From NCBI RefSeq assembly GCF_001542815.1, contig NZ_CP006992.1, positions 1,036,001 through 1,100,000 of the forward strand: a stretch of DNA of 64,000 bases. The letters are read 5' to 3'. Below, one piece after another: positions 5,592-20,913 of the stretch (the stretch's first letter is position 1; the number at the start of each line of letters is the position of its first letter). A program made the position numbers and the translations under genes. This DNA is from Methylobacterium sp. AMS5 (GTDB lineage: Bacteria; Pseudomonadota; Alphaproteobacteria; Rhizobiales; Beijerinckiaceae). The notes under the pieces are model-generated. The model did not search any database, had not been told where the DNA came from, and worked only from the letters and a program-made list of their open reading frames with translations.

Positions 5592-5831
5592 CGTGACCTC
5601 CTCGCCTTCCTATCAACCCGCCGCTGCGCGATCTCGTTCGAGTCCGGCCGGGCGATCGCTCGAACGCGATCCCCCCGGTTTTTGGCTGGCCTCAATCGCC
5701 GGGGCCCGCCGCCGCGGACCGTGTCGGTTCCTTGCCCGGCTCCCCGGGCTTTCACGCCGCCAAGCCGCTCAAGCGGGTTCGCGCAATGCCCCTGGCCAGT
5801 CCGCACTGTGCCTTGACCTGCCATTCGCATC

Positions 5832-5848
5832 TGGTATACCAGATGCCA
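5832..5848. promoter_or_regulatory. Oxalate-regulon operator 1 (upstream of PAS-frc1)
   Basis: The sequence is TGGTAT-ACCAG-ATGCCA. It overlaps a perfect 20-bp palindrome at 5827-5846. It is one of six copies of the WGGYAT-N5-ATRCCA inverted repeat confined to the oxalate island, and is proposed as a binding site of the GntR regulator encoded at 20161-20913. Confidence 0.7.
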
Positions 5849-5923
5849 ATGACGAGCCACCGGAAAGAGTGATCTCGACCCGGAAGGCCCGAGACCCGGG
5901 AAGCCAAGGAGGCAACGCCTGCC

Positions 5924-5989
5924 ATGACCGAACGCGGCATCCTCGACAGACATCGCATCTCTCCGCTCACAGCGCGGCCTCAGGGCTAG
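5924..5989 (+). CDS. Possible 21-residue leader peptide
   Basis: A short frame, MTERGILDRHRISPLTARPQG, begins with ATG at 5924 and ends with TAG at 5987. It is preceded by the strong ribosome-binding site AAGGAGG at 5906-5912 (11-base gap). It lies between operator 1 and the PAS gene and ends 24 bases before it. It could be a leader peptide or simply position ribosomes on the transcript. No homologue is recognised; only the ribosome-binding site and position support it. Confidence 0.35.
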   Translation: MTERGILDRHRISPLTARPQG

Positions 5990-6013
5990 CCGGCGGCGGA
6001 AGGGGGGCAACGG

Positions 6014-6463
6014 ATGGCCCAATCGCAGACCTTCGACACGTCCGGGCTCGTCGCGGCGATCGGTGACGCGGTGGTGATCTCCGACGCGGACGGACGGATC
6101 GTCATCTGGAATCCGGCCGCCGAGCGGATCTTCGGCTACTCGGAAGCCGAGGCGCTTGGGCAGAGCCTCGACCTCATCACCCCGGAGCGTCACCGCCGCC
6201 GCCACTGGGATGGCTACGCCAAGACGATGCGCACGGGCGAGACCCGCTACGGCACGTCGCTGCTCAAGGTTCCGGCCCTGCACAAGGGTGGCCGGGCCCT
6301 GTCCATCGCCTTCACCGTCGCGCTGCTGCACGGCGCGGAGGGCGAAGTCACCGGCATCGCCGCGGTCATCCGCGACGAGACCGAGCGCTTTCAGGAAGAG
6401 CGCTCCCTGCGCCGCCGCGTGGCGGAGCTGGAAGAGGCTTTGGGCACCCTCGTCTGCGCCTGA
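6014..6463 (+). CDS. Stand-alone PAS domain protein
   Basis: 149 residues made almost entirely of one PAS domain: AIGDAVVISDADGRIVIWNPAAERIFGYSEAEALGQSL at the N-terminus and a PAC-like end (GEVTGIAAVIRDETERFQEERSLRRRVAELEEAL). The last part is probably a coiled coil. There is no kinase, cyclase or DNA-binding output domain, so it would have to signal by protein contact. The ATG follows a GGAAGGGGGG run. It sits between oxalate operator 1 and the formyl-CoA transferase gene (102 bases downstream), suggesting that it senses a ligand or redox state linked to oxalate use. The PAS call is sure; the role is inference. Confidence 0.85.
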   Translation: MAQSQTFDTSGLVAAIGDAVVISDADGRIVIWNPAAERIFGYSEAEALGQSLDLITPERHRRRHWDGYAKTMRTGETRYGTSLLKVPALHKGGRALSIAFTVALLHGAEGEVTGIAAVIRDETERFQEERSLRRRVAELEEALGTLVCA

Positions 6464-6487
6464 GGCGGGGCGCCCGAGCCATTCAGC

Positions 6488-6508
6488 AATATTACCGACC
6501 GTAATATT
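6488..6508. promoter_or_regulatory. AT-rich inverted repeat before frc1
   Basis: AATATTAC (6488-6495) and GTAATATT (6501-6508) form a perfect 8-bp inverted repeat around CGACC, followed by TTTT. It lies in an AT-rich patch between the PAS gene and frc1. It could be an operator, an attenuator hairpin or part of a second promoter. It is unrelated in sequence to the TGGTAT operators. Confidence 0.45.
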
Positions 6509-6565
6509 TTTCGATTTTCCAACAACGACGACCCACAACGAAGTCGAAATAGGGAGAAGACTGAG

Positions 6566-7816
6566 ATGACCCAGCCGCTCGACGGGATCAAAATCATCGA
6601 TTTCACCCACGTCCAGGCGGGTCCCGCCTGCACCCAGCTCCTCGCGTGGTTCGGGGCGGATGTGATCAAGGTCGAGCGTCCGGGCTCGGGCGACGTGACG
6701 CGCAACCAGCTTCGCCACGTCGAGGACGCGGATGCGCTCTACTTCACGATGCTCAACTCCAACAAGCGTTCGCTGACGCTGGACACCAAGAACCCGCAGG
6801 GCAAGGAAGTCCTGGAAAAGCTGATCCAGGAATCCGACGTGATGGTCGAGAATTTCGGCCCCGGCGCGCTCGATCGCATGGGCTTCACCTGGGCCCGCAT
6901 CCAGGAGCTCAACCCAGGCATGATCCTCGCCTCGGTGAAGGGCTTCTCCGACGGACACCACTACGAGGATCTGAAGGTCTACGAGAACGTGGCCCAGTGC
7001 GCCGGCGGTGCGGCCTCGACCACCGGCTTCTGGGACGGCCCGCCGACCGTGTCGGCCGCCGCGCTCGGCGACTCGAACACCGGCATGCATCTCGCCATCG
7101 GCATCCTCACGGCGCTTCACCAGAAGACCAAGACCGGCAAGGGCCAGAAGGTCGCCGTGTCGATGCAGGATTCGGTGATCAACCTCTGCCGGGTGAAGCT
7201 GCGCGACCAGCAGCGCCTCGATGCCATCGGCTACCTCGAAGAATACCCGCAATACCCGCACGGCGAGTTCTCGGACGTGGTGCCGCGTGGCGGCAACGCG
7301 GGCGGCGGCGGCCAGCCGGGCTGGGTGCTCAAGTGCAAGGGCTGGCAGACGGACCCGAACGCCTACATCTACTTCACGATCCAGGGCCATGCCTGGGCCC
7401 CGATCTGCAAGGCGCTCGGCCGCGAGGAATGGATCGACGATCCGGCCTACAACACCGCCCGCGCTCGCCAGGACAAGATCTTCGAGATCTTCGCCATCAT
7501 CGAGGATTGGCTGGCCGACAAGACCAAGTTCGAGGCCGTCGATATCCTGCGCAAGTTCGACATCCCGTGCTCGCCGGTGCTGTCGATGAAGGAGATCGCC
7601 GCCGATCCGTCGCTGCGCGCGAGCGGCACCATCGTCGAGGTGCCGCACCCCAAGCTCGGCTCGTATCTGACCGTCGGCTCCCCGATCAAGTTCTCGGACC
7701 TGAAGGTCGACATCAAGGCTTCGCCGCTTCTGGGCGAGCACACCGACGAGGTCCTCGCGGGCCTCGGCTACTCGCCCGAGCAGATCGCCGCGATGCACGA
7801 GTCGCGCGCGGTCTGA
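6566..7816 (+). CDS. frc: Formyl-CoA:oxalate CoA-transferase (paralogue 1)
   Basis: 416 residues; a class III CoA-transferase that swaps CoA from formyl-CoA to oxalate, giving oxalyl-CoA and formate in the cytoplasm. The sequence keeps the numbering of the Oxalobacter enzyme: Gln17 (HVQAGP), the catalytic Asp169 (ALGDSNTG) and a glycine loop GGGGQ at 246-250. Residue 48 is Gln, as in the E. coli homologue YfdW, where Oxalobacter Frc has Trp. The gene follows the PAS gene and is read from the operator-1 side. A good ribosome-binding site (AGGGAGAAG) precedes the ATG. A strong hairpin lies just after the stop. Product assignment is sure. Confidence 0.96.
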
Positions 7817-7824
7817 GGGGAAGC

Positions 7825-7848
7825 GGCAGCGCGGGTCTCCGCGCTGCC
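7825..7848 (+). terminator. Hairpin after frc1
   Basis: GGCAGCGCGG (7825-7834) pairs perfectly with CCGCGCTGCC (7839-7848) around a 4-base loop, nine bases after the frc1 stop codon. There is no T-run, so it may act as a terminator or as an RNA-stabilising end. Confidence 0.6.
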
Positions 7849-8226
7849 CGCACAGGATGGCCAGTCTCTTACGGCCATGATCCTCCCGGGACGGGGCATC
7901 GCCCCGGGAGCGCATGACCGGGCATGACGCCCGGGTTTCTTCCTCCTCCGATGACTTTCCCGGGCCGACTCCGTCGGTCCGGTTTTTCGGTGTCCGGGCC
8001 CCTGATACGGCATCCGTTTGATCGAACTTGCGTCACGGCGGAAGCCGAGCGTTCCCCTCTCCCCGCGGGCGGGGAGAGGGGAAATCCGCCCTCCCGCAGG
8101 GATCAACCGGATTGAGACTGTCTCACTCACAAAACTCTCGATCTCTGACCGTTCTCGCGTTGGCGAGGACGGCGCGGCGGGCGTTTTCGAGAGACACTTG
8201 AATGGAGGCGCGTTCGCCCGCGCCGC
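7849..8226. other. Intergenic region with palindromes, no gene
   Basis: This region between the convergent frc1 and hydrolase genes holds no convincing reading frame. It contains a second hairpin around 7885-7913 (CTCCCGGG/CCCGGGAG arms) and the perfect palindrome described at 8052-8083. The rest shows nothing recognisable. Confidence 0.6.
8052..8083. repeat. Dispersed palindrome (CTCTCCCCGC type), copy 1
   Basis: TTCCCCTCTCCCCGC (8052-8066) and its exact complement (8069-8083) are separated by two bases. A shorter copy of the same palindrome is found at 22221-22244. Both are intergenic. Confidence 0.85.
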
Positions 8227-8946
8227 CTAACCGAAGAAATCGCCCAGGAAGAAGTCTACGGCCTGGCTCACCACGTCGGGATGGTAGGCATGCGGACCGT
8301 CATACTCGACGTAGGTGAGGTCGTAGCCCGCCGCCCGAAGCAGCCGGGCGTGGTTGCGGGCGCTCCGGTCGATCGGAATCTGCTCGTCGCGGGTGCCGTG
8401 CGACAGGAAGATTTTGGGCGCACCCGCCTGCACCTGCACCGACATGAACCCAGCGGACGACACGATCAGGTGGCTGACCCGGTCACCGTTGGTGAGCCCG
8501 AGGGACAGCGCGTAGCTGCCGCCGTCCGAATGGCCCGCGAAGGCGAGATGGCCCGGATCGATCAGGAACCGGTCGGCCACCTCGGCGAGCGCCCGGTCGA
8601 GCCGCTCCCGGTCCGGCCCGTTGCCGGCGATCACGAGATCCCAGGTCGGGTGCAGCGATTGCGGCGCGAGCAGCAGGAAGCCGCGCTGGTCCGCATGGGC
8701 TTCCAGCATCGGCAGGATCTTTTCGGCACTGCCGCCGCCGCCGTGGAACAGGACGACGAGCGGCGTCGGCAGGCGGGGGTCGATGTGCTCGGGCACGCGG
8801 AGCATCGCGTCGCGGGTCTCGAACAGACCGAGCGCGTGGCGGCCCGGCGGCAGCGGCGGCTTGCCCGGCAGCCGCGGCAGGAAGGCGAGCCGGCCGGCGA
8901 GCCGGGGATCGAGGGCAACCATCGGATCGAAGGGGGAGGAGGACAT
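8227..8946 (-). CDS. Alpha/beta hydrolase (carboxylesterase/phospholipase type)
   Basis: 239 residues. The oxyanion-hole strand is PLVVLFHGGGGSAE, the nucleophile elbow is AFAGHSDGGSYALSLG (Ser in GHSDG), the acid is in IFLSHGTRDEQIPID, and the catalytic His is in YVEYDGPHAYHPDVV. This is the complete triad of the phospholipase/carboxylesterase branch, small cytoplasmic esterases with unknown natural substrates. The ATG at 8946 was chosen because the frame upstream of it reads through the repeat element and looks non-coding. It faces frc1 tail to tail and has no obvious operon partner. Confidence 0.82.
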   Translation of the reverse strand: MSSSPFDPMVALDPRLAGRLAFLPRLPGKPPLPPGRHALGLFETRDAMLRVPEHIDPRLPTPLVVLFHGGGGSAEKILPMLEAHADQRGFLLLAPQSLHPTWDLVIAGNGPDRERLDRALAEVADRFLIDPGHLAFAGHSDGGSYALSLGLTNGDRVSHLIVSSAGFMSVQVQAGAPKIFLSHGTRDEQIPIDRSARNHARLLRAAGYDLTYVEYDGPHAYHPDVVSQAVDFFLGDFFG

Positions 8947-8976
8947 GGGGCGTCTCGCAGGTGGAGCCCAACGCCG

Positions 8977-9126
8977 CCCCTCATGCTGAGGTGCCCGCGA
9001 CAGCGGGCCTCGAAGCACCTCGGACCGGTCCTTCCCCATGCCCGGGAGGGACATCGGAAGGCTGTCTCGGGTCGTTCGCCGCGCGTGCTTCGAGGCTTTC
9101 GCTTCGCTCCGCACCTCAGCATGAGG
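8977..9126. repeat. Long inverted repeat (CTCATGCTGAGG family)
   Basis: CCCCTCATGCTGAGGTGC at 8977-8994 and its complement GCACCTCAGCATGAGG at 9111-9126 bracket about 115 bases, so the whole element can fold into one long stem-loop. A related CTCATGCTGAGG segment recurs at 42978. It lies between the hydrolase start and the oxc stop. Confidence 0.75.
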
Positions 9127-9220
9127 GACGGAGGGGCTTGCCGGACAAAAAAGGACCGCGGCGCCCATTTCGGGCACCGCGGTCCGGCTCAGTCGAAGCG
9201 GTCGGAGGGCAGTGCCCGCC

Positions 9221-10972
9221 TCACTTCTTCTTCAGGGTGCTCTGCGGGTTGAGGCTGCCGATATTGCCGCTCTCGCTGCCGGCGGCCGGGTCGATCTCCG
9301 CATTGATGAGGGTCGGCTTACCGGAATTCATCGCCTCGTCCACGGCCCGCTTCAGCTCGTCCGGCGTGGTGACGTTCACGCCGACGCCGCCGAAGGCCTC
9401 CATCATCTTGTCGTAGCGGGAATTCTTGACGAAGACGGTGGTACCCGGATCGCGGCCGGTCGGATCGGTGTCGGTGCCGCGATAGATGCCGTTGTTGTTG
9501 AAGATGACGATGCAGACCGGCAGCTCGTAGCGGCAGATGGTCTCCACCTCCATGCCGGAGAAGCCGAAGGCCGAGTCGCCCTCGACCGCCAGCACCGGCT
9601 TGCCGGTCTCGACAGCCGCCGCGACGGCGAAGCCCATGCCGATGCCCATCACGCCCCAGGTGCCGACGTCCAGGCGCTTGCGCGGCTGGTACATGTCGAT
9701 GATGCCGCGGGCGAGATCGAGGGTGTTGGCGCCCTCGTTGACGAGGATCGCGTCGGGCCGCTCCTTGATGACGGTCCGGAGCGCCCCGAGTGCCGAGTGG
9801 AAGCACATCGGCGAGGAGTCCTTCATCAGCTTCGGGGCCATCTTGGCGATGTTGGCCTCGCGCTTGCTCCGCAGCGTCTCCAGCCAGTCGGAGGGCGCGC
9901 CCTTCCAGTCCTTGCGGATGCCGTCGAGCAGCGCTTCGACGCAGGACCCGATATCGCCCACCACCGGCGCGACGATCTCGACGTTCGAGTCCATCTCGCG
10001 CGGCTCGATGTCGATCTGGATGAAGCGCTTCGAGCCGGGCTCGCCCCAGGTCTTGCCCTTGCCGTGGGAGAGCAGCCAGTTCAGGCGGGCGCCCACCAGC
10101 AGCACCACGTCGGAATCCTTGAGCGCGGTGGAGCGGGCCGCACCGGCCGAGAGCGGGTGGGTGTCGGGCAGGAGGCCCTTGGCCATGCTCATCGGCACGT
10201 AGGGGATGCCGCTCTCCTCGACGAGCGCGCGCACCGCCTCGTCGGCCTGGGCGTAGGCCGCGCCCTTGCCGAGGATGATGAGCGGACGCTCGGCCGACTT
10301 CAGCACGTCGAGCGCCCGGGCGATGGCGGACGGGGCCGGGAGTTGGGCCGGGGCCGCGTCGATCACCTTGACCAGCGAGCGCGCGCCGAGATCGGCGTCG
10401 ATGACTTGCGAAAAGAGCTTGGCGGGCAGATCGAGATAGACGCCGCCGGGCCGGCCGGAGACGGCGGCACGGATCGCGCGCGCCACGCCGATGCCGATAT
10501 CGGCGGCGTGCAGCACGCGGAAGGCGGCCTTGCAGAGCGGCTTGGCGATGGCGAGCTGATCCATCTCCTCGTAGTCGCCCTGCTGCAGATCGACGATCTC
10601 ACGCTCGGAGGAGCCGGAGATCAGGATCATCGGGAAGCAGTTGGTGGTGGCGTTGGCCAGCGCGGTCAGGCCGTTGAGGAAGCCCGGCGCCGAGACTGTA
10701 AGGCAGATGCCCGGCTTCTTGGTGAGGAAGCCGGCGATCGCGGCGGCGTTGCCCGCGTTCTGCTCGTGGCGGAAGGAGATGACCCGCAGACCCTCGGCCT
10801 GGGCCAGACGGCCGAGATCGGTGATCGGGATACCGGGCACGTTATAGATCGTCTCGATGCCGTTGAGCTTGAGCGCGTCGATGACGAGGTGGAAGCCATC
10901 CGTCAGCTCCGGCTCCTCGTGGGGCATCGCGCCCGCGGTGATCGCGTCGATGTTCTGGGCCTGGACGGTCAT
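9221..10972 (-). CDS. oxc: Oxalyl-CoA decarboxylase
   Basis: 583 residues; a thiamine-diphosphate enzyme that turns oxalyl-CoA into formyl-CoA and CO2. Key residues can be matched to the Oxalobacter enzyme with an offset of 14: the ThDP-activating Glu70 ([11 protein letters not shown]) and Tyr134-Glu135 (QQGDYEE). The ThDP/Mg motif is [14 protein letters not shown]...FNNNGIY, with GDS in place of the usual GDG. The ATG at 10972 follows AAGGGAGA; upstream in-frame codons run through the operator region and are non-coding. The gene has its own operator copy 142 bases upstream and is convergent with nothing on its own strand. Together with frc it makes the complete oxalate-to-formate cycle. Identification is sure. 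Confidence 0.97.
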
Positions 10973-11113
10973 GCGGCGTTCTCCCTTATGGTGCGGATGC
11001 TCTTGTCCGGCGCGGGGCCCGATGGCGTCAGGCCGGGCTCGTTTCGCGCCTGCTGCTGCGCCGCGCGCAGCGTGCGGACCGGTCTCGAGTGGCCGGTCTT
11101 GTTGCGACACATC

Positions 11114-11130
11114 TGGCATACCAAATACCA
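11114..11130. promoter_or_regulatory. Oxalate-regulon operator 2 (oxc)
   Basis: The plus strand reads TGGCAT-ACCAA-ATACCA, a copy of the WGGYAT-N5-ATRCCA repeat, 142 bases upstream of the oxc start codon and inside the probable oxc promoter region. Confidence 0.7.
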
Positions 11131-11507
11131 ATGAGTCGGTCAAACGAAACACGTGGCTCTGCGTGCCCCCACGTGAGGCGCCGGAGGAGCGGTCGAAACA
11201 GGGGCTGCGGGGGTCGCCGGATCCAGGGTTTCGGGGATGACGCGTCGAGAGACAGGCCGCCCGGCATCCGGCGGCCATGGTTCCTCGAAGGGAAGTCCGA
11301 CGGCGGACTTGTCTTCAGCGTTTTCTGATCACACTCGGCACGGTCCCGAAGCGCGATCCGGCCTCGTCGTGGGTCGCCGGCCAGATTGGCTACGGGTCGA
11401 GACACCGGCCCGCTGTGACACCGCGAAAGCGTTGAAGGCATGGTTGGCGAAGGGCGGCCGAGGGGCCGGCGCGAGGAACTCCGCTGCCGGGAGTTCGGCT
11501 GGGGCGG
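11131..11507. other. Intergenic region between oxc and oxlT1, no gene seen
   Basis: The stretch upstream of oxc holds no frame with gene-like features or a ribosome-binding site. Apart from operator 2 on one side and the oxlT1 terminator on the other, nothing is recognised. Confidence 0.5.
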
Positions 11508-11540
11508 CCGCCGCCTCGACGCGAGCCGTCGAGGCGGCGG
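11508..11540 (-). terminator. Hairpin after oxlT1
   Basis: A perfect 14-bp stem (CCGCCGCCTCGACG at 11508-11521 against 11527-11540) has a 5-base loop and begins 17 bases after the oxlT1 stop on the minus strand. It lacks a T-run. Confidence 0.65.
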
Positions 11541-11557
11541 ACCATCATTCGAGGCCC

Positions 11558-12883
11558 TCAGGCCAGCGTCACGGCGCGAGCTTCCGCCGCGTCGGCGATC
11601 TCAGCCTCCGCCGCGAGGTAGCGCCGCCGCATCGGCTTCAGCACGAAGACCGCCAGCGCCGCGGCCAGGATGTTCAGCCCGATGATGAGGCCGAACACCG
11701 CCGACCAGCCGTAGGACGCCGACAGCACGCTGGCGAAGGGGACGAGGAAGGCCGCCGTACCCTTGGCCGTATAGAGGAGGCCGGCGTTGCTGGCGGCGTA
11801 GTTCGAGCCGAACGTGTCGCCGCAGGTGGCTGGGAACAGCGAGTAGATCTCCCCGAACACGCCGAAATACATCGCCGTACACAGAACGAAGACGACCGGA
11901 TTACGCCCGTAGCCGAGGAGCAGAATGCAGGCCGTCGCCGCAATCACGAAGGCAATGAACATCGTGTTCTCGCGGCCGATGTTGTCGGACACCCAGCCGA
12001 AGAAGGGCCGGCCGAACCCGTCGAAGATGCGGTCGAGCGAGATCGCCAGGGTGAGCGCGGCCATCTGCAGGCCGAACAGGTTCATCGTCACGTCGGCGAC
12101 CTTGAAGTCGTGGGCGATCGGCGCGATCTGCGCCGCCGCCATCAGGCCGCCGGAGGCGACCATCACGAACATCGCGTACATCGTCCAGAATACGGGGGTG
12201 CGCACCGCTTCCTTCGGGCTGCGGTCGATCTTGGTCTGGGGAAGGCGCAGGTTCTTGCGCCGGATCGGCACGGCGACCGAGGGCTTGCGCAGGAAGAAGG
12301 ACAGCAGGACGACGACCGCGCCCTGGCCGAGGCCGAACACGAGGAAGGCCTGGGCATAGCCGCTGGCGGCGATCATGTTGGCGATCGGGATCACCGTGAT
12401 CGCCGCGCCCGCGCCGAAGCCCGCCGCGGTCGCGCCCGCCGCCAGCCCGCGCCGGTCCGGAAACCATTTCAGGGCGTTGCCGACGCAGGTGCCGTAGACC
12501 GAGCCCGCGCCGATGCCGCCGATCACCGCGGCGGTGTAGAGCAGGAAGAGGGAGTCGGCATAGGCGTTCAGGGCCCAGGACAGGGCGATCATGACGCCGC
12601 CGAAGCAGACCACGATCCGCGGCCCGTAGCGATCGACGAACCACGTCTCGACCGGCACGAGCCAGGTTTCGGTGGCGACGAAGATCGTGAAGGCGAACTG
12701 GATCGCCGTACGCCCCCATTGGTGCTGCGCATCGATCGGATCGACGAAGAGCGTCCAGCCATACTGAAGGTTGGCGATCATGGCCATGCAGAGCACGCCG
12801 AAGGCCAGTTGCCACCACTTGGTGGAAGGCGCATCCGAAGGCGCCTGGAGCGGCGCGTGTTGCTCTGCCGGTTGGTGTACCAT
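11558..12883 (-). CDS. Oxalate/formate antiporter-like MFS transporter 1
   Basis: 441 residues with about 12 membrane helices; OFA family of the major facilitator superfamily. The two charged residues needed by Oxalobacter OxlT can be matched: the Lys in GLLYTAKGTAAFLVP (OxlT Lys355) and the Arg in DRIFDGFGRPFFGWVSD (OxlT Arg272). It probably exchanges oxalate for formate across the inner membrane, or imports oxalate. The ATG at 12883 follows CAGGGAGAGAA. It lies downstream of a second, similar transporter on the same strand but has its own operator at 12945-12961 and its own terminator. Family sure; exchange stoichiometry not visible. Confidence 0.92.
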   Translation of the reverse strand: MVHQPAEQHAPLQAPSDAPSTKWWQLAFGVLCMAMIANLQYGWTLFVDPIDAQHQWGRTAIQFAFTIFVATETWLVPVETWFVDRYGPRIVVCFGGVMIALSWALNAYADSLFLLYTAAVIGGIGAGSVYGTCVGNALKWFPDRRGLAAGATAAGFGAGAAITVIPIANMIAASGYAQAFLVFGLGQGAVVVLLSFFLRKPSVAVPIRRKNLRLPQTKIDRSPKEAVRTPVFWTMYAMFVMVASGGLMAAAQIAPIAHDFKVADVTMNLFGLQMAALTLAISLDRIFDGFGRPFFGWVSDNIGRENTMFIAFVIAATACILLLGYGRNPVVFVLCTAMYFGVFGEIYSLFPATCGDTFGSNYAASNAGLLYTAKGTAAFLVPFASVLSASYGWSAVFGLIIGLNILAAALAVFVLKPMRRRYLAAEAEIADAAEARAVTLA

Positions 12884-12944
12884 CCGGTTCTCTCCCTGAA
12901 CGTTTCTCGTGCTCCCCTGGCGCCGCATCATGCACAATGATGCT

Positions 12945-12961
12945 AGGCATACAATATACCA
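12945..12961. promoter_or_regulatory. Oxalate-regulon operator 3 (oxlT1)
   Basis: The plus strand reads AGGCAT-ACAAT-ATACCA, one base off the best copies, 62 bases upstream of the oxlT1 start codon. It fits the WGGYAT-N5-ATRCCA pattern shared by six sites in the island. Confidence 0.65.
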
Positions 12962-13114
12962 GAGCAGAAAGTCCGTCCGCGATGCTGCGGCAACCCGGCA
13001 CACCGGGCGACGGCATCGGCGCGCGCACTTCAAAGAATGCGCGGCGTCGGGACCGGAAAACGCGTCGGCGCGCACCGGGCGTCTGAGCCCGGCACGCGCC
13101 GACATTCTTCGAAA

Positions 13115-13134
13115 GGCCGGGCGGCGGCCCGGCC
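13115..13134 (-). terminator. Hairpin after oxlT2
   Basis: GGCCGGGC and GCCCGGCC arms flank GGCG, 12 bases after the oxlT2 stop and followed on the minus strand by TTTC. A second imperfect GC-rich stem (GTCGGCGCG.../...CGCGCCGAC) lies at about 13063-13103. Confidence 0.6.
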
Positions 13135-13145
13135 TGTGCGCGGCC

Positions 13146-14441
13146 TCAGTGGGCGGAGACCGTCTCCGGCTTGGCCTCCAAGGCGGCCGACTCCCGCGTG
13201 TAGGCCTGCCGCATCGGCTTGAGGACGAAGATCGCCATCAGCGCCGCGAGGATGTTGAGCGCGGCGGCCGCCAGGAACACCGCGTGCCAGCTCCCCGTCA
13301 TCGTCGTGAGGATGCTGGTATAGGGCACGATCAGCGCCGCCGTGCCCTTGGCGGTGTAGAGCAGGCCGGCATTGGTGGCGGCGTATTTCGAGCCGAAGGT
13401 GTCGCCGCAAGTCGCTGGGAACAGCGAGTAGATCTCGCCCCAGGCGAAGAACACCAGACCGGTCAGGATCACGAACAGGATCGGGTCCTGGCCGAACTGG
13501 CTCAGCAGGTAGATGCCCACACCCTCGATGCCGAAGGAAAGGAACATCGTGTTCTCACGGCCGATATGGTCGGAGATCCAGCCGAAGAGCGGGCGCGTCA
13601 CGCCGTTGAGCACCCGGTCGATCGTGGCGGCGAAAGTCAGCGCCGGCAGGGTGATCCCCAGCAGGCTCACCGGCACGTCGGCGATATGGAAGTCCTTGGC
13701 GATGGGGCCGAGCTGGGCGGTGGCCATCAGGCCGCCGGCCGCCATCATCACGAACATCGCGTACATCACCCAGAAGATCGGGGTGCGCACCATCTCGCCG
13801 GGCGTGAAGTCGCGGCGGCTCTGGCTGACGCGGGCGATCTCGGGCACCTGCCCCTTCTTCGGCGCCACCAGAAACAGCGCGATCAACATCACGATCAGGC
13901 CCTGGCCGATGCCGAACCAGAAGAAGGCGGCCTCGTAGCCGTAATGGTGGATCACCGCCTGGATCGGCACAACGGTGAGCGCCGAGCCCGCGCCGAAGCC
14001 CATGGCGGTGAGGCCCGCAGCCAGACCGCGCCGGTCGGGGAACCACTTCAGCGAATTGCCGACGCAGGTGCCGTAGACCGCGCCCGCACCGGTGCCGCCA
14101 ACGGCCGCCCCGACATAGAGCAGCCAGAGCGTGTCGGCGTAGGCGTTGATCACCCAGGCCAGCCCGCACAACAGGCCGCCGACGAGCGTCACGGCCCGCG
14201 GGCCGTACTTGTCGACGAACCAGCCCTCGATCGGCACCAGCCACGTCTCGGTGAGGACGAACAGGGTGAAAGCGACTTGGATCGCGGCGCGGTCCCAGCC
14301 GTGCCGTTCCTGCATCGGGTTGACGAAGAACGTCCAGCCGTACTGCATATTGGCGATCATGCACATGCAGACGATGCCGAACACCAATTGCAGCCATCGG
14401 CTCGTCGGTGGTGGAACGTATGTTGTCGTGGGTTGGGTCAT
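13146..14441 (-). CDS. Oxalate/formate antiporter-like MFS transporter 2
   Basis: 431 residues, close paralogue of the transporter at 11558-12883 with the same helix pattern. GLLYTAKGTAALIVP holds the Lys matching OxlT Lys355, and DRVLNGVTRPLFGWISD the Arg matching Arg272. The two genes are in tandem, 262 bases apart, and look like an old duplication. The ATG at 14441 follows CTGGAGATG; an in-frame ATG at 14492 would add 17 residues without a better ribosome-binding site. Unlike oxlT1 it has no close TGGTAT operator: the nearest is at 14910-14926, nearly 470 bases upstream, beside the divergent CBS gene. The upstream 80 bases are AT-rich. Family sure; specificity may differ from paralogue 1. 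Confidence 0.9.
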   Translation of the reverse strand: MTQPTTTYVPPPTSRWLQLVFGIVCMCMIANMQYGWTFFVNPMQERHGWDRAAIQVAFTLFVLTETWLVPIEGWFVDKYGPRAVTLVGGLLCGLAWVINAYADTLWLLYVGAAVGGTGAGAVYGTCVGNSLKWFPDRRGLAAGLTAMGFGAGSALTVVPIQAVIHHYGYEAAFFWFGIGQGLIVMLIALFLVAPKKGQVPEIARVSQSRRDFTPGEMVRTPIFWVMYAMFVMMAAGGLMATAQLGPIAKDFHIADVPVSLLGITLPALTFAATIDRVLNGVTRPLFGWISDHIGRENTMFLSFGIEGVGIYLLSQFGQDPILFVILTGLVFFAWGEIYSLFPATCGDTFGSKYAATNAGLLYTAKGTAALIVPYTSILTTMTGSWHAVFLAAAALNILAALMAIFVLKPMRQAYTRESAALEAKPETVSAH

Positions 14442-14909
14442 GGACGCATCTCCAGTGTACGCTCGATTTTTCCGAGCTTTTTGGCCGCTCAATTTCTCGA
14501 TTATTTTTCGAATATGACTTTAAATATTCTCTGACGCGAAATGACTGCCTGAGCAGACCATCGCGTTCTTCCGGTCGATTCTTGGGGCCGCATCCCACTC
14601 GATCACATCGGATCGGCGGATCCGGACCATCGTTTCAACGCGCCCTCTTTCGACGAACCGGCAGCTACCTCGTCGGAATGCGCTCACGAAGCCGAAGGCA
14701 CCGCCCCGGACGAACTCTCCCGGTTCCCGGGGACACCCTGCGAGGACGACGGCAAGGCTTTCGCGCAGCCCTGGATCAGGGGCAGGACATGCCTCGGATC
14801 ATGCCGCACCGGCCTAACGGAGGACGTCCAAGCAGGTCGATTTGGCGGGTCGATCTTGCCAATCCCGCCCGGACGCCGGCACCATAATTCAAAACGCAGG
14901 ATTGACAAT
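14442..14909. other. Intergenic region upstream of oxlT2 and the CBS gene
   Basis: No gene is seen in this stretch. The oxlT2-proximal part (about 14465-14530) is AT-rich with short runs of T and A and probably carries the oxlT2 promoter. The rest has normal GC content and no recognised signal. Confidence 0.5.
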
Positions 14910-14926
14910 AGGTATGCTGTATACCA
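14910..14926. promoter_or_regulatory. Oxalate-regulon operator 4 (CBS-unknown-P-loop genes)
   Basis: The sequence is AGGTAT-GCTGT-ATACCA. A TTGACA that could serve as a -35 box lies just before it at 14902-14907, so a bound repressor would cover the promoter. It is 53 bases upstream of the GTG start of the CBS gene. Confidence 0.65.
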
Positions 14927-14978
14927 GCCTGCGTTCAAAGGCGGCCCCGTTCGAGAGGCATGCCGATGGAGGAGCGCC

Positions 14979-15443
14979 GTGTTTGGAACGATGCGCCGTG
15001 AGCCGGATGCCGCGGGCGTCCGCACCATCCACCGGGACCGATCCGTGGCCGAGGCAGCGCAACTCCTCGCCCAGCCGGGAACGGGCGCGCTCGTCGTCGT
15101 CGAGGGCGATGCCGACGCAACGGTGACGGGTCTGCTGACCCAGCGCGACATCTTCCGCGCGGTGGCGGCCGAGGGCCCCGAGATCTACAGCCGCAGCGTC
15201 TGGCTCATCACCGATCACGACTTTCCCGCGGTCGATGTCGGCGCTTCGGCGCAGGAGCGGCTGAAGACCTTCTGCGAGCGGAAGGTCGATCACATCGCCC
15301 TGATGGATTCCTGCCGCATCAGCGCGATCCTGAGCATCTGGGACTGCGCTGGCCAAGGGGTCGGTCAAGGGGTCGGTCAAGATCGTAGCCGAGATCTTGG
15401 CCAAGCACCGGCGACAAACCCGCCGGCATTGCCGCATACGTGA
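14979..15443 (+). CDS. CBS-pair (Bateman) domain protein
   Basis: 154 residues. Two CBS repeats can be seen: VRTIHRDRSVAEAAQLLAQPGTGALVVVE..TVTGLLTQRDIFRAVA, and then VDVGASAQERLKTFCERKVDHIALMDSCRISAILSIWD. CBS pairs bind adenosyl ligands such as AMP, ATP or SAM and usually regulate a partner. The GTG at 14979 was chosen because GGAGG lies 6 bases upstream. The tail after the second CBS (GQGVGQGVGQDRSRDLG...) comes from a 12-base direct repeat and has low complexity, so the C-terminus may be altered by slippage. It is the first gene behind oxalate operator 4. Confidence 0.75.
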   Translation: MFGTMRREPDAAGVRTIHRDRSVAEAAQLLAQPGTGALVVVEGDADATVTGLLTQRDIFRAVAAEGPEIYSRSVWLITDHDFPAVDVGASAQERLKTFCERKVDHIALMDSCRISAILSIWDCAGQGVGQGVGQDRSRDLGQAPATNPPALPHT

Positions 15444-15597
15444 AGGCGCACGGCTCACAGTGAGCGCAAATGGAGCGCCGGACACGACGCATCTCGTTAT
15501 GGATTCATGCCTGCCGGGAGCAGGCACCGTTTACCGAGCGTTGTGCGAGAACGATCCGGAACAGGTTGGAAGACGAGTCCGAGAAAAGGCGTCAGCC

Positions 15598-15891
15598 ATG
15601 GAAAACCCGATGAAATATCTGACCGTCGTCGAATGCCCGATCGTCTTTCCGGGCGAGAACGAATTCGGTGCGTCGAGCATCGATATGCTTCCCCGTCTCG
15701 GCATCGCCGGCGGGCTGGAGAGCCGCCACATCCGCGTTCTGGACGAGCGCATCATCGCGGTGTGCATCTGGCGCAGCTCGTTCTGCGCCAAGCTGTTCTT
15801 CGACACCGCGTGGCACGAGCGGGCGGCGAGCCTGTGGGGCGAGGCCTACCAGATCCGGTTCGAGGCGATCGAGAACGCCTCCGCCGCCTGA
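15598..15891 (+). CDS. Uncharacterised 97-residue protein
   Basis: 97 residues (MENPMKYLTVVECPIVFPG at the start, WGEAYQIRFEAIENASAA at the end). The alternation of short strands and helices is reminiscent of small ferredoxin-like or dimeric alpha-beta barrel proteins, but no motif proves it. It contains three cysteines (one near the N-terminus, two in the middle). It follows the CBS gene by 154 bases and precedes the P-loop gene by 22 bases, so it is probably cotranscribed with the latter. No function is claimed; its position behind oxalate operator 4 is the only clue. Confidence 0.6.
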   Translation: MENPMKYLTVVECPIVFPGENEFGASSIDMLPRLGIAGGLESRHIRVLDERIIAVCIWRSSFCAKLFFDTAWHERAASLWGEAYQIRFEAIENASAA

Positions 15892-15913
15892 TCGAAACCG
15901 GGAGGGGCGAGCG

Positions 15914-17788
15914 ATGACCGACGCCGCGCCGCCCCTCTCCGACAGGTTTGCAGACGAAACCGCCGGCACCGCCCTCGCGGACGAGCCGGCCTTCCACGCC
16001 TGGAATCCCGGCCTCGAACCCGGCCTGCCGCGGGCGATGCGCCCGCTCGCGACGGTGTTCCGGCCCGAGAACGTCCGCCTGCCCTTTTCCGAAATCCTCG
16101 AACTGTCCGATTTCAGCGGCCTGCCCCCGACGCAGCTCGCCCTCTTCCGGCCTGAGCGCCTCGCGGTCCACGAGGTGCTGATCCGGGTCATGGCCGATAT
16201 CTCGGTCCCCGTCGGCGAAGTCTACGCCGATCTCGGACTGAACTTCCGGCGCATCGTCGGTACGCTGCTGCGCGAGGGCGTGATGCACCGCCTGGACGCG
16301 GTCGCGGCCATCCTCGACGCGGTCCGCGCCGAGGCCGATGCGGCGCTGGAGTGCGAGCTGTCGGCCCTGTTCGACGAGGCGCCCGCGCCGCCGCCCGAAC
16401 CGGTCTCCGCCTGGGCCGGGTGGCTCCGCCGCCTCGGCCCACGCGAGCCGCCCTCCCCTTGCCCGTCCCCTGCCCCATCGCCTTCTCTGGCCGGCGACGG
16501 GCAGGCTCGCATCCTCGCCCGCCTCGACGAACGATGCGCGGCCGCGAGCGAAGCCGAGAGTATGGAGAGCGCCGCCCGCGAGGCCCTGCGCACGGTGTTC
16601 GGCCATGTCATCGCCCGCCAGGGCATGCTGATCCGCGACCGCACGCTGCTGCGGCGGCTCGCCGGCATCCTCGTCACCAACCGTTGCGGCAGCGACCGGA
16701 TCGGCGCGCTGATCGCGCCCTGGATCGAGTCGGTCGCCGCGGCGCAGGGCTACCATCGGCCCGCACCGCAAGCGCAGCCGGTGGTGATGACCGTCAAAGG
16801 TGCCTCGGCCTCGGGCAAGAGCACGATCCGGCCCTATCAGCGCGACCTCGCCGGACGGATCGGCGCACAATGGCAGGACTTCGCCGTCATCACGCCCGAC
16901 GTCTGGCGCAAGTTCCTGCTGGACTATGACAGCTTGGGCGAAGCGCGCCGCTATGCCGGGCCGCTGACAGGCCACGAAGTCGAGATCATCGATGCCAAGC
17001 TCGACCGCTACATCACCCGCAAGGCGGCCGGCGGCCGCCTCTCGCACCTGCTGATCGACCGATTCCGCTTCGACAGCTTCTCGACGGAGGCCGGCAGCGA
17101 CGGCGCTGGCCAGCTCCTCACCCGGTTCGGCCAGCGCGTCTATCTGCAATTCATGATCACTCCGCCCGAGGAAACCGTGGAGCGGGCCTGGAAGCGGGGC
17201 GAGGAGTTCGGACGCTACAAGGCGGTCGAGGATCTGCTCGCGCACAACGTCGAGGCCTTTACCGGCATGCCGCGGCTGTTCTTCACCTGGGCGCTGCGCC
17301 GGGACCGTCCGGTCACTTACGAATTTCTCGACAACAGCGTGCCAAAGGGCGCGCGTCCGCTCACCATCGCCTTCGGCACGAACGACGCGATGACGATCCT
17401 CGACGCCAAAGCCCTGCTGGCGATCGAGCGTTATCGGCGGATCGATATCCGCGCCCGCGCGGCGGCCGACGTCTATCGCGGCGTCGCCGACGCGCCGGAG
17501 GCCGAGGCGCGTTTTCTGCGGGAGGCCTTGCGGCAAGTGTCCGTGGTGCGCTTTGCCGATCGGGAGTCGGGGCGGGTCTTCGCGCGCTTCGAGAACGGTC
17601 GTCTCGTCGGCCTCGACCCGGTGGGTCTCGCCGCCGCATGCCGGGAGGCCGGGACCGCGCGGGCGCTCTCAGCGACGGGCCTGACGAAGCACACCGCGGG
17701 CGTCGCCCCGCTCGACGAGGTTCTCTGCCCGGACGAAACCTCGACCCTCGGCGCATGGGGTCCGAAGGCAGGCCGAGCGACCTCCTGA
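15914..17788 (+). CDS. Uncharacterised P-loop NTPase/kinase-like protein
   Basis: 624 residues. The N-terminal half is Ala/Pro-rich with helical stretches (about residues 40-160), followed by a Pro/Ser linker. Near residue 300 a Walker A motif appears in VVMTVKGASASGKSTIRPYQRDLAG, followed by features of nucleotide kinases (FAVITPDVWRKFLLDYDSLG, LSHLLIDRFRFDSFS, VYLQFMITPPEETVERAWKRGEEFGRYKAVEDLL). The layout recalls zeta-toxin-like or other small-molecule kinases fused to an extra N-terminal domain; this is inference. The start follows GGGAGGGG closely. Located after the CBS and 97-residue genes, it completes a set of poorly known genes under oxalate operator 4. Product and substrate are unknown. 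Confidence 0.7.
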   Translation: MTDAAPPLSDRFADETAGTALADEPAFHAWNPGLEPGLPRAMRPLATVFRPENVRLPFSEILELSDFSGLPPTQLALFRPERLAVHEVLIRVMADISVPVGEVYADLGLNFRRIVGTLLREGVMHRLDAVAAILDAVRAEADAALECELSALFDEAPAPPPEPVSAWAGWLRRLGPREPPSPCPSPAPSPSLAGDGQARILARLDERCAAASEAESMESAAREALRTVFGHVIARQGMLIRDRTLLRRLAGILVTNRCGSDRIGALIAPWIESVAAAQGYHRPAPQAQPVVMTVKGASASGKSTIRPYQRDLAGRIGAQWQDFAVITPDVWRKFLLDYDSLGEARRYAGPLTGHEVEIIDAKLDRYITRKAAGGRLSHLLIDRFRFDSFSTEAGSDGAGQLLTRFGQRVYLQFMITPPEETVERAWKRGEEFGRYKAVEDLLAHNVEAFTGMPRLFFTWALRRDRPVTYEFLDNSVPKGARPLTIAFGTNDAMTILDAKALLAIERYRRIDIRARAAADVYRGVADAPEAEARFLREALRQVSVVRFADRESGRVFARFENGRLVGLDPVGLAAACREAGTARALSATGLTKHTAGVAPLDEVLCPDETSTLGAWGPKAGRATS

Positions 17789-18007
17789 ACCGCTGCCATG
17801 CTGCGGTGCGACATCGGCAGGCGTCTGTCACGCCGTCGCCAGCGGCAGGGATTGCCGCCGGATTCGCGCGCCGTCAGATCAAGGCACAACATTCACATGC
17901 ACGTGACGCATGCATGTGTCTGGTATTTTGTACTTCATATCCCAAAGCGAGCGGCTTATCCGGGATTCGTTCGCACCGCACCATAGCCCGTACCGACGGA
18001 GACTATC

Positions 18008-18175
18008 ATGCTCGCCACTTGGCTCGCCGCGCTTGTTTTCCTCGTCGCCGTTCAGGCTCTGTTCGTCGTGAAGCTGGCCGACCGGTTGACCGTCTCGAGC
18101 GCTGCCCAGGATGTCCCGACGGGCCGCGGCATTGAGGCGCCGCAGACTTCCGGGCGCTACGCCCGCGCCGCCTGA
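18008..18175 (+). CDS. Small single-span membrane protein
   Basis: 55 residues, ATG at 18008 to TGA at 18173-18175, too short for most gene callers. The N-terminal 25 residues (MLATWLAALVFLVAVQALF) form one hydrophobic helix, followed by a hydrophilic tail (RGIEAPQTSGRYARAA). A purine-rich CGGAGA lies before the ATG. A TGGTAT half-site occurs at 17921-17926 upstream, with a poor second half. Its last 19 bases overlap the end of the opposite-strand small gene. Function unknown. Confidence 0.5.
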   Translation: MLATWLAALVFLVAVQALFVVKLADRLTVSSAAQDVPTGRGIEAPQTSGRYARAA

Positions 18176-18384
18176 ACCGCGACCTCACGTCCGGCGAATC
18201 GCGCGGCAGCCAACCATTCGGGTCCGGCCGGTTTGGCGGGCGAGACTGCGCAGCCCATCTCGGCCACGGACGGCGTTGCATCGAGAAAAGCCTGCATCTC
18301 GGCATCGGAGTAGTGACCGAACGCGTCCACGAGATCCGCCAGAGCGCGGTCCGCGGCGTGGTCTGGGACGTTTTCGGCCATCAC
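18157..18384 (-). CDS. Uncharacterised 74/75-residue acidic protein behind an oxalate operator
   Basis: 75 residues from GTG 18384, or 74 from the ATG at 18381 (MAENVPDHAADRALADLVDA...). GGAGG lies 5 and 8 bases upstream of the two starts. The N-terminal half is acidic and helical (DAEMQAFLDATPSVAEM); the C-terminal half is rich in Ala and Arg. No domain is recognised. It has its own copy of the oxalate operator (18449-18465), 65 bases upstream, which separates it from frc2 transcription. That a regulon operator is placed only before this gene suggests a real product related to oxalate metabolism. Confidence 0.6.
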   Translation of the reverse strand: MMAENVPDHAADRALADLVDAFGHYSDAEMQAFLDATPSVAEMGCAVSPAKPAGPEWLAAARFAGREVAVQAARA

Positions 18385-18448
18385 CGTATCCTCCGGTCGC
18401 CGGCCCGAACGGTGCGCAACGCCGCCGTCTCGGGTCTCGCTTTCTCAT

Positions 18449-18465
18449 TGGTATCTGGCATACCA
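18449..18465. promoter_or_regulatory. Oxalate-regulon operator 5 (small gene)
   Basis: The sequence is TGGTAT-CTGGC-ATACCA, with perfectly symmetric 6-bp arms, the best-formed copy together with operator 6. It lies between the frc2 stop and the start of the 74/75-residue gene. Confidence 0.72.
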
Positions 18466-18520
18466 GACGCGGGAAATCAAGTTCCGAAGGCTTCGGTATT
18501 CGGCAGGATAGTGCCGCGCG

Positions 18521-19810
18521 CTACTCCGCAGCGATGCGGTGGACGCCGCCTACCGCACCCGAGCCGAGGATGTCGCCGATCTCGGCATCCGTGCAGCCCA
18601 GCACCTCGCGCAGGATCTCGTCGGTATGCTCGCCGAGCAGCGGCGCGCGGGTGATCTCGGTCGGGCTCGCCGACAGCTTGATCGGGTTGCCCACCGTCAG
18701 GTAGGTGCCGCGGGTCGGGTGCTCGACCTCGACCACAGTGCCGTTCGCCCGCAGCGTCGGATCCTCGGCGATCTCCCGCATCGACAGGATCGGTCCGCAC
18801 GGGATCTCGTAGGCGTTGAGGATCTCCATCGCCTCGAGCTTGTCGTGCTTCATCGTCCACGCTTCGATGCGCGTGAAGATCTCGTTGAGATGCGGCAGGC
18901 GGGCCTTCGGCGTCGCGTAGGCCGGATCGGTCTTCCAGTCCGGCTCGCCGATGATGTCGCAGATCGGTCCCCAGACCGCGCCCTGCGTGATGAAGTAGAT
19001 GTAGGCGTTGGGATCCTGCTCCCAGCCCTTGCACTTCAGGATGCGGCCGGGCTGCCCCCCGCCGGAATCGTTGCCGGCCCGCGGCACCGCCTCACCGAAG
19101 GGGACGCCTTCGCCGTACTGGCTGTATTCCATCAGCGGGCCGTGGGCGAGACGCTGCTGGTCGCGCAGCTTCACCCGGCAGAGGTTGAGCACTCCGTCCT
19201 GCATGGCACAATCGACGCGCTGGCCCTGCCCCGTCTGGGTGCGCTGGTAGAGGGCGGTGACGATGCCGAGTGCGAGGTGCAGGCCCGTGCCGGAATCGCC
19301 GATCTGCGCGCCCGACACCATCGGCACGCCGTCGCGCCAGCCGGTGGTGGAGGCCGCGCCGCCGACGCATTGGGCGACGTTCTCGTAGACCTTGCAATCC
19401 TGGTAGCGGCCGGGCCCGAACCCCTTCACCGAGGCCAGGATCAGGCCCGGATTGGCGGCCTGCAATTTCTCCCAGGTCAGCCCCATGCGATCGAGCGCAC
19501 CGGGTGCGAAATTCTCGACCAGCACGTCGCACTCGGCGATGAGCCGCCAGAGGATCGCGTTGCCCTTGGGGTTCTTGCCGTCGAGCGTGATCGAACGCTT
19601 GTTGTGGTTCAGCATCGTGAAATAGAGGCTGTCCACGCCGGGAAGGTCTTGAAGCTGCTGGCGCGTCGCATCGCCCGCGCCCGGCCGCTCGACCTTGATC
19701 ACGTCGGCCCCGAACCACGCGAGCAGTTGCGTGCAGGTCGGCCCCGATTGAACATGGGTGAAATCGAGGATGCGAACGCCCTCGAGTGCCTTGCCCGGTG
19801 CCTTGCTCAT
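18521..19810 (-). CDS. Formyl-CoA:oxalate CoA-transferase-like protein (paralogue 2)
   Basis: 429 residues, class III CoA-transferase closely similar to frc1 along its whole length. The N-terminus is four residues longer, so Gln21 (HVQSGP) matches Gln17 and Gln52 matches Gln48; the catalytic Asp is in [12 protein letters not shown]. The glycine loop reads SGGGQ rather than GGGGQ, the clearest active-site difference. The ATG at 19810 follows GGAGGAGACC; upstream codons in the frame are non-coding. It is divergent from gntR with operator 6 in between. It may be a second oxalate enzyme or use another acid such as a different dicarboxylate. Family sure, substrate less so. Confidence 0.9.
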
Positions 19811-20029
19811 CGCAGGTCTCCTCCCCAGGAGAGTGGCATGTTGCCGGGCGCTGATCGGCCGATGGCGTCGGCCGTGTGCGCCCGCGGGGTTCCGTGCCGG
19901 TCTGGTTCCGTACCGGTCTTGGGCTCCGGCATGGCTGGCGTGCGCGACTTGAGTGCGGCTCAGGGCATCATCAGCGAGGCTGCCCTGCACCCGGCGAATG
20001 CCGCCGACATCGACTCCCCGGCTTTCTTC

Positions 20030-20046
20030 TGGCATACCAGATGCCA
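20030..20046. promoter_or_regulatory. Oxalate-regulon operator 6 (gntR/frc2 divergent region)
   Basis: The sequence is TGGCAT-ACCAG-ATGCCA with perfectly symmetric arms, between the divergent frc2 and gntR genes. Its place predicts that the regulator controls itself and frc2. Confidence 0.75.
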
Positions 20047-20160: not shown

Positions 20161-20913
20161 ATGCTCCCGCCGCTCGATGTTTCCACTCCGGACCCGCAAC
20201 CCCATCGGCATCAAGGTCGATCCGAAGTGATGGAAAATCTCTCGATCAAGCCAATCGTTCCGGCGACGAGCCTGCGGACGCTGGCCTACGAGGCGCTGAA
20301 ATCCGCCATCACCAACATGGACATCTACGGCCAGACCGGAGATGTGCGGCTCGATGAGCGCGGCTTGTCGCAGACGCTCGGCGTGAGCCGCACGCCGATC
20401 CGCGAGGCGCTGACGGTGCTGGAGCAGGAAGGCTTCGTGCGCAACGAGCCCCGACGCGGCGTGTTCGTGGTCAAGAAGACGAAACGCGAGATCGTCGGCA
20501 TGATCCAGGCCTGGGCGGCTTTGGAGAGCATGGCGGCGCGGCTCGCCTGCACCGCCGCCTCGGACGAGGATCTGGCCTGCCTGCGCCGCTCCTTCCCGGA
20601 GTTCTTCGACGGGCAGCCCTACGAGCATCTCGACGAGTACTCGGAAGCCAATATCCGCTTCCACCAGAAGATCATTGCGCTCGGCCACAGCGCGGTGATC
20701 ACGGACCTGACCAGCAACCTGCTGATGCATGTGCGCGGCATCCGCAACACGGCGCTCCGCCAGGGCGATCGCGCCTCGAAGTCGATCGAGGAGCACGTGC
20801 GGATCATCGAGGCGCTGGAGGCCCGCGACGCGGAGCGCGCCGAGCGCCTCGTGCGCGACCACGGCCTCGGCCTCGCCGACCACGTCCAGCGCTACGGCGA
20901 CCACCTCGACTGA
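20161..20913 (+). CDS. GntR-family (FCD subfamily) transcriptional regulator
   Basis: 250 residues from ATG 20161 (AAGGA about 10 bases upstream); 227 from the ATG at 20230, whose ribosome-binding site is weak. A winged helix-turn-helix (about residues 40-105) contains RLDERGLSQTLGVSRTPIREALTVLEQEGFV, diagnostic of GntR regulators. The C-terminal FCD domain binds small acids through His/Asp/Asn residues, seen in FHQKIIALGHSAVI and EEHVRIIEALEARDAERAERLV. It ends the oxalate island and is divergent from frc2. The WGGYAT-N5-ATRCCA palindromes have the TGGT/ACCA half-sites usual for FCD members, so it is the best candidate for their binder; the ligand could be oxalate, oxalyl-CoA or glyoxylate. 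Confidence 0.9.
   Translation: MLPPLDVSTPDPQPHRHQGRSEVMENLSIKPIVPATSLRTLAYEALKSAITNMDIYGQTGDVRLDERGLSQTLGVSRTPIREALTVLEQEGFVRNEPRRGVFVVKKTKREIVGMIQAWAALESMAARLACTAASDEDLACLRRSFPEFFDGQPYEHLDEYSEANIRFHQKIIALGHSAVITDLTSNLLMHVRGIRNTALRQGDRASKSIEEHVRIIEALEARDAERAERLVRDHGLGLADHVQRYGDHLD

Follow-up and report, generated by a model that had tools for sequence, protein, structure and literature searches.

An FCD-type GntR protein as the probable regulator of an oxalate regulon in Methylobacterium sp. AMS5

A 64-kb window of Methylobacterium sp. AMS5 (genome G000, contig C1, positions 1036001 to 1100000; coordinates below are window positions unless marked C1 or genome) carries an island of oxalate catabolism genes interspersed with six copies of a palindromic element. 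One island gene, gntR (20161 to 20913, + strand), encodes an FCD-type GntR regulator, whose relatives place the organism within Methylorubrum/Methylobacterium. With a probability of about 0.75, this protein acts as a repressor of oxalate catabolism, with its operator behind the -35 box, and is released by oxalate or one of its products. The first-pass annotation had already proposed an oxalate regulon around this regulator. Co-occurrence, synteny and site conservation now strongly support such a regulon and its regulator, and make the adjacent FCD-type GntR protein by far the best candidate to bind the sites.

A pattern scan of the window located WGGYAT-N5-ATRCCW exactly at 5832, 11114, 12945, 14910, 18449 and 20030, the positions given by the first-pass annotation. 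Its statement that the window holds no further full copy was also confirmed; only 17-mers with one mismatch were added, at 45133 and at 5825 (overlapping site 5832). By comparison, 100 first-order Markov sequences modelled on the window contained on average 0.03 exact copies and at most one. The 5.6-Mb genome contains nine exact 17-mers, six in the 14.2-kb island and three elsewhere, a clustering with P of ~1e-11, and no copy of a reversed-pattern control. After start codon placement (oxc at 10972, the first antiporter gene at 12883), all six sites are intergenic. The accompanying description of each site as upstream of an oxalate-island gene needs qualification for site 18449, which serves a 74-residue open reading frame (ORF) that is no recognised oxalate gene. 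Short palindromes can also be repetitive extragenic elements, but chance and an origin as mobile or structural repeats are negligible explanations given that just nine exact copies occur in 5.6 Mb, that the flanks of the sites are unrelated, and that a refined motif depends on the presence of gntR, as described below.

Linkage of the sites to gntR

The distribution of gntR and its sites was analyzed in a family sample of 119 genomes (gntR orthologues at E ≤ 1e-40, oxc at E ≤ 1e-150), in which gntR is found in 24 genomes, oxc in 22 and both in 21. The loose 17-mer with a free N5 spacer is unspecific by itself and cannot carry the regulator argument, since 92 of the 119 genomes have at least one copy. 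The refined 17-mer, TGGYATRCCANATRCCA, yields 43 sites, which are distributed over 19 of the 24 gntR-bearing genomes and none of the 95 genomes lacking the gene (Fisher p, 9e-18), while a control pattern is absent from all 119. Among the outcomes that the first-pass annotation had named as counting against it were sites being common at unrelated promoters and a lack of conservation by oxc and frc. With the refined motif, the results favoured its proposal: 40 of the 43 sites lie within ~15 kb of gntR or oxc on the contig, and relatives keep sites upstream of oxc and frc. Of the remaining three, one each lies ahead of nuoA, an HD-domain gene and PAS-frc1.

In the genus sample (59 genomes; gntR at E ≤ 1e-60, antiporter homologues at E ≤ 1e-100), gntR and the antiporter are missing from the same seven genomes. 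The 10-bp core TGGYATRCCA, described below, occurs on average 11.7 times in the 52 genomes with gntR (control, 5.1) and 2.6 times in the seven without it (control, 4.1; Mann-Whitney p, 1.4e-5), although the ranges touch (4 to 32 and 0 to 5, respectively). Synteny extends this association to distant genera, where gntR, preceded by a site or core, is followed directly by oxc and mostly then by frc, at a regulator identity of 52 to 58% (L049 to L051, L065, L066, L072 to L078 and L080). Genome G114 has oxc-frc without gntR, and its locus (L116) contains no exact site or core. Directly upstream of gntR (≤450 bp), an exact 17-mer or core is present in 41 of 46 loci (L001 to L046), or in 45 of 53 when L047 to L053 are counted, a total that leaves out the two weak loci L054 and L055.

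Several observations weigh against this linkage. The p-values overstate independence because the genomes share ancestry, and in some gntR-bearing genomes of the genus the core is no more frequent than the control (4 versus 6 in G130, 6 versus 10 in G151, 7 versus 11 in G157). In L018, L034, L036, L040, L042, L047, L052 and L053, the 450 bp ahead of gntR contain no exact site or core. In addition, five gntR-bearing genomes of the family (G043, G079, G106, G059 and G104) have no exact refined site, while all five keep the core. The first three of these represent one genus, in which the place of oxc is held only by a 27%-identical thiamine pyrophosphate (TPP) enzyme.

It is very unlikely that the operator is bound by an FCD regulator other than the product of 20161 to 20913. 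TKGT/ACMA boxes are common to FadR-subfamily regulators (PMC4494728), and a second GntR paralogue, 49 to 58% identical, is present in 8 of the 59 genus genomes, both of which would allow for another binder. On the other hand, refined sites are absent from the 95 gntR-lacking genomes of the same family, and where rearrangement has occurred, the sites are again found beside gntR. A GntR paralogue of 49 to 52% identity directly adjoins the third antiporter gene in four genomes (G120:C6, G136:C1, G143:C1 and G124:C101). In G120, G136 and G143, the promoter beside it (L139, L138 and L141) has no exact core, which speaks against the paralogue as the binder, although some promoters without this neighbour lack the core as well.

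Operator, regulator and probable mode of action

The 161 assigned sites, a number slightly inflated by two loci carried under two identifiers (L015 = L120, L035 = L121), comprise 39 distinct 17-mers. In these, the presumed spacer is constrained: 35 of the 39 have T or C at position 8, 37 have G or T at position 9, and 37 have G at position 10. Together, positions 8 to 11 carry the other half of a 10-bp palindrome, and a perfect TGGYATRCCA lies inside 15 of the 39 distinct sites, compared to 1.7% when spacers are taken at random from the window and oriented by the same rule. To describe the surroundings of the core, a core-only set of 127 distinct sites was read in 254 orientations, with a half-site defined as TGGYAT matched at ≥5 of 6 letters. 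In 120 of the 254, an extra half-site follows exactly 7 bp away, and in none does one follow at 6 or 8 bp. A second step is weak in this set, with 11 half-sites at 14 bp against 6 and 7 at 15 and 16 bp. It is clearer at sites of two target groups discussed below, where the 14-bp half-site occurs in 6 of 32 (small membrane proteins) and 9 of 34 cases (third antiporter), with none at 13, 15 or 16 bp in either group. The 7-bp half-site is rarer at the third-antiporter sites (4 of 34), and several distant loci have a core without any half-site (L068, L069, L070 and L079). Three near-tandem TGGYAT steps are readable in five small membrane-protein loci (L171, L173, L174, L175 and L176).

The constrained spacer and the 7-bp phasing rule out the simple inverted repeat with a free N5 as which the element had first been described. 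Judged from sequence, the operator is therefore a GT-N2-AC palindrome of the FadR-subfamily type, TGGYATRCCA, supplemented with half-sites phased at 7 bp. The core is close to TKGYATRCCA, and has the TKGT/ACMA boxes of FadR-subfamily operators.

The regulator combines an N-terminal GntR winged helix-turn-helix (PF00392, 41.7 bits; cut-off, 27) with an all-helical C-terminal FCD domain (PF07729, 83.7 bits; cut-off, 24.3). Residues G74, V75, S76, R77, T78, P79, R81, E82 and A83 are invariant in all 27 regulator sequences compared. The structural model has a mean predicted local distance difference test score (pLDDT) of 82.4, and in a VIA-align comparison its fold matches those of PmiR, TM0439 and Atu1419. 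The metal site of FCD domains consists of an Asp/Asn-x3-His motif and two further His residues. N164, H168, H212 and H234 are invariant in 27 of 27 sequences and align with the D..FH, H, H pattern of 7xp0, which makes a metal-bound carboxylate ligand in the FCD pocket likely. The first 23 residues of the gntR frame (20161 to 20232) are poorly conserved and poorly predicted, and many homologous matches begin near residue 24 to 26, so that translation may in fact begin with the ATG at 20230. Residues 4 to 30 have a pLDDT below 50, and any comparison with the N-terminal extension through which NanR-type repressors assemble cooperatively involves a segment of which the first 23 residues are possibly untranslated.

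To assess promoter layout, operators were read in the direction of the target gene and TTGAC was sought within 30 bp on either side. Upstream of the operator, it is present at 31 of 36 oxc, 22 of 24 frc2, 20 of 27 CBS and 6 of 6 PAS-frc1 sites, compared to 277 of 20000 random 30-bp windows. Within 30 bp downstream, it occurs at none of the oxc, frc2, CBS, PAS-frc1, OxlT2, small-ORF or OxlT1 operators. The operators on the gntR side, a mixed set including sites common to divergent genes, have TTGAC upstream in 24 of 76 cases and downstream in one. A steric repressor uses an operator just behind the -35 box. Repression is probably the mode of action, as TTGAC stands just upstream and never downstream at most oxc, frc2, PAS-frc1 and CBS operators. 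Other promoters fit this layout less well: TTGAC is found upstream at only 19 of 48 OxlT2, 3 of 11 small-ORF and none of 15 OxlT1 sites, good -10 boxes are hard to place, and the tallies are slightly inflated by two genomes that were counted twice (L015/L120 and L035/L121).

The same protein could instead activate all or some of these promoters and be needed for growth on oxalate, an unlikely though not far-fetched alternative. The FadR-subfamily protein GlcC is an activator (PMC11323563), and at the first paralogue of the small membrane proteins a conserved GATATA box begins ~18 bp beyond the core, with no good -35 box seen. In contrast, the position of TTGAC upstream of the oxc, frc2, CBS and PAS operators, and not downstream, indicates that the operator overlaps the core promoter.

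Under repression, a GntR dimer would bind the 10-bp palindrome TGGYATRCCA (GT-N2-AC class), and the extra TGGYAT half-site or half-sites at 7-bp steps would probably recruit a second dimer. As the operator sits just downstream of the presumed -35 box, the bound protein would keep RNA polymerase off the oxc, frc1, frc2, CBS and antiporter promoters, and the divergent operator perhaps makes gntR self-repressed. GntR would leave the DNA, and the genes for oxalate uptake and catabolism would be induced, once the FCD pocket is filled by oxalate or by one of its products (oxalyl-CoA, formyl-CoA, glyoxylate or formate).

Island genes and candidate targets beyond the island

The island enzymes and antiporters were assigned using NCBIfam equivalog models, all of which scored above cut-off. 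The operator at 5825 to 5848, a 24-bp near-palindrome (TCGCATCTGGTATACCAGATGCCA) of which the originally reported 17-mer covers 5832 to 5848, precedes a gene for a 149-residue PAS-domain protein (6014 to 6463, +; PF00989) and frc1 (6566 to 7816, +), encoding formyl-CoA:oxalate CoA-transferase (TIGR03253, 720 bits; cut-off, 504). In another genome (L115), the site before PAS-frc1 and gntR are on different contigs. Oxalyl-CoA decarboxylase is encoded by oxc (9221 to 10972, −; TIGR03254, 1017 bits), whose start codon stands behind a GGGAG box and whose operator (11114 to 11130) is preceded by a TTGAC starting 13 bp ahead of it on the oxc strand. Two oxalate/formate antiporter genes follow, OxlT1 (11558 to 12883, −; TIGR04259, 672 bits; cut-off, 335), with an operator 61 bp upstream (12945 to 12961), and OxlT2 (13146 to 14441, −; 715 bits with the same model and cut-off). 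The operator at 14910 to 14926 lies between OxlT2 and a CBS-domain gene (14979 to 15443, +; PF00571), with TTGACA immediately upstream on the CBS strand. An ORF of 706 residues at 15668 to 17788, whose zeta-toxin/P-loop match is weak and falls short of the Pfam cut-off, also stands beside the CBS gene in the oxalate loci of many relatives.

The operator at 18449 to 18465 lies 67 bp upstream of the 74-residue ORF (18157 to 18381, −), which has no Pfam match and has relatives in 11 loci. It is exact in 11 of the 12 sequences where the ORF was found and missing in L043. This site does not belong to frc2 (18521 to 19810, −; TIGR03253, 695 bits; cut-off, 504), since in L009, L011 and L012 the small ORF is 70 to 71 bp away and the end of frc2 536 to 782 bp. 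The sequence CTGGTATTTTGTACTTCATAT (17920 to 17940) precedes a 55-residue membrane-type ORF (18008 to 18175, +). Among 12 sequences, the window's own and those of 11 loci, nine share it unchanged, L014 and L043 are one base off and L006 is more divergent; it resembles a degenerate operator with poor consensus fit. The Ala-Ala C-termini common to the small proteins were considered as a degradation signal and dropped, 4 of 40 crude gene calls in the window ending likewise. Between the divergent frc2 and gntR, the operator at 20030 to 20046 combines the core TGGCATACCA with a half-site.

The six island sites are thus all real but incomplete as a regulon, as sites extend beyond the island. A third antiporter gene (C1 1979208 to 1980518) has a core at −149; among 30 orthologue loci, the core is exact in 14, has one mismatch in 7 and is absent from 9 (one of these loci, L152, is perhaps misplaced because of a short contig). 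At the promoter of the gene for a 67-residue membrane protein (C1 1447047 to 1447247) lies a perfect palindrome of 24 bp. Homologues occur in 12 of the 59 genus genomes, and all 16 loci have an exact core, 69 to 84 bp ahead of the match; because the query was chosen for its site, 15 loci form the test. These proteins are a paralogous family of single-pass proteins of ~70 residues, with paralogues at C1 1447047 to 1447323 (L057) and L127 1379 to 1663. A large protein database contains nine members, 'hypothetical' where named.

Upstream of nuoA, by about 290 to 300 bp, an exact 17-mer (C1 918125 to 918141; L056) is shared with G126 and G135, whose flanks have diverged, and two more genomes have an exact core elsewhere upstream, giving 5 of 30 loci. 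No operator stands upstream of nuoA in the close relative G123, and with a tRNA-Asp gene on the other side of the site, nuo is not the sole possible target. The core also precedes an HPP-CBS gene, with homologues (39 to 47%) beside frc1 in three relatives (L017, L115 and L120), and in G049 an exact site precedes the HD-domain gene, with homologues (37 to 47%) in ten relatives' gntR loci. An alginate-export-like porin gene (genome position 4247630) and a cyclase gene (4703975) have a core upstream and no homologue in the relatives' oxalate loci examined. Two exact loose sites (genome positions 1629957 and 2549878), apparently inside ORFs and with unrelated N5, were taken as chance, as probably were three off-island cores (124519, 1329699 and 2792077, all TGGCATGCCA) judged from a crude ORF list only.

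We tentatively consider, at odds clearly below even, that GntR is a wider switch that directly controls, besides the oxalate genes, complex I (nuo), HPP-CBS, the HD-domain gene of relatives and the small membrane-protein family through 7-bp-phased arrays. If so, array length, up to three tandem half-sites, would set the number of dimers assembled, and the switch would link respiration and the membrane with the load of formate and protons that oxalate use brings. Uncharacterised genes would gain a concrete physiological context from the off-island targets, most of all those of the small membrane-protein family.

Comparison with known systems

Plants commonly contain oxalate as an acid, and leaves are a habitat of Methylobacterium. 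The analysis provides a proposed regulator, an exact operator, a target list and a candidate oxalate sensor in a tractable, non-pathogenic genus. No GntR regulator of bacterial oxc or frc appeared in the literature searched by title and abstract opening, a search that most subscription papers fall outside, and the terms 'oxalate' and 'Methylobacter' do not occur in the main text of the comparative genomics paper on the FadR subfamily (PMC4494728). Provisionally, this would be a new regulon of a known regulator type. FadR-subfamily operators have TKGT/ACMA boxes, with GT and AC separated by 2 nt in some groups, and weaker extra boxes 7 to 12 nt from the site center (PMC4494728); in contrast, the extra half-site described here is nearly as conserved as the core.

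PmiR of P. aeruginosa, TM0439 and Atu1419/VanR are likewise FCD-type GntR regulators, with solved structures. They differ from the present regulator (25 to 29% identity in three alignments) in their targets and in core letters other than TGGYATRCCA. GlcR of Paracoccus denitrificans, likewise a GntR-family repressor from an alphaproteobacterium, controls a pathway for a two-carbon acid and dissociates from DNA in response to its substrate, glycolate (PMC11323563); both substrate and target genes are different. NanR of E. coli, another FCD-type GntR protein, shares the half-site TGGTAT through its (GGTATA)3 operator, whose direct repeats are spaced by less than half a helical turn and bound by three dimers (PMC8012715). 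Unlike the direct repeats of NanR, the core here is an inverted pair, to which direct half-sites are added at exactly 7 bp. The three near-tandem TGGYAT steps at five small membrane-protein loci recall the three repeats of the NanR operator (PMC8012715).

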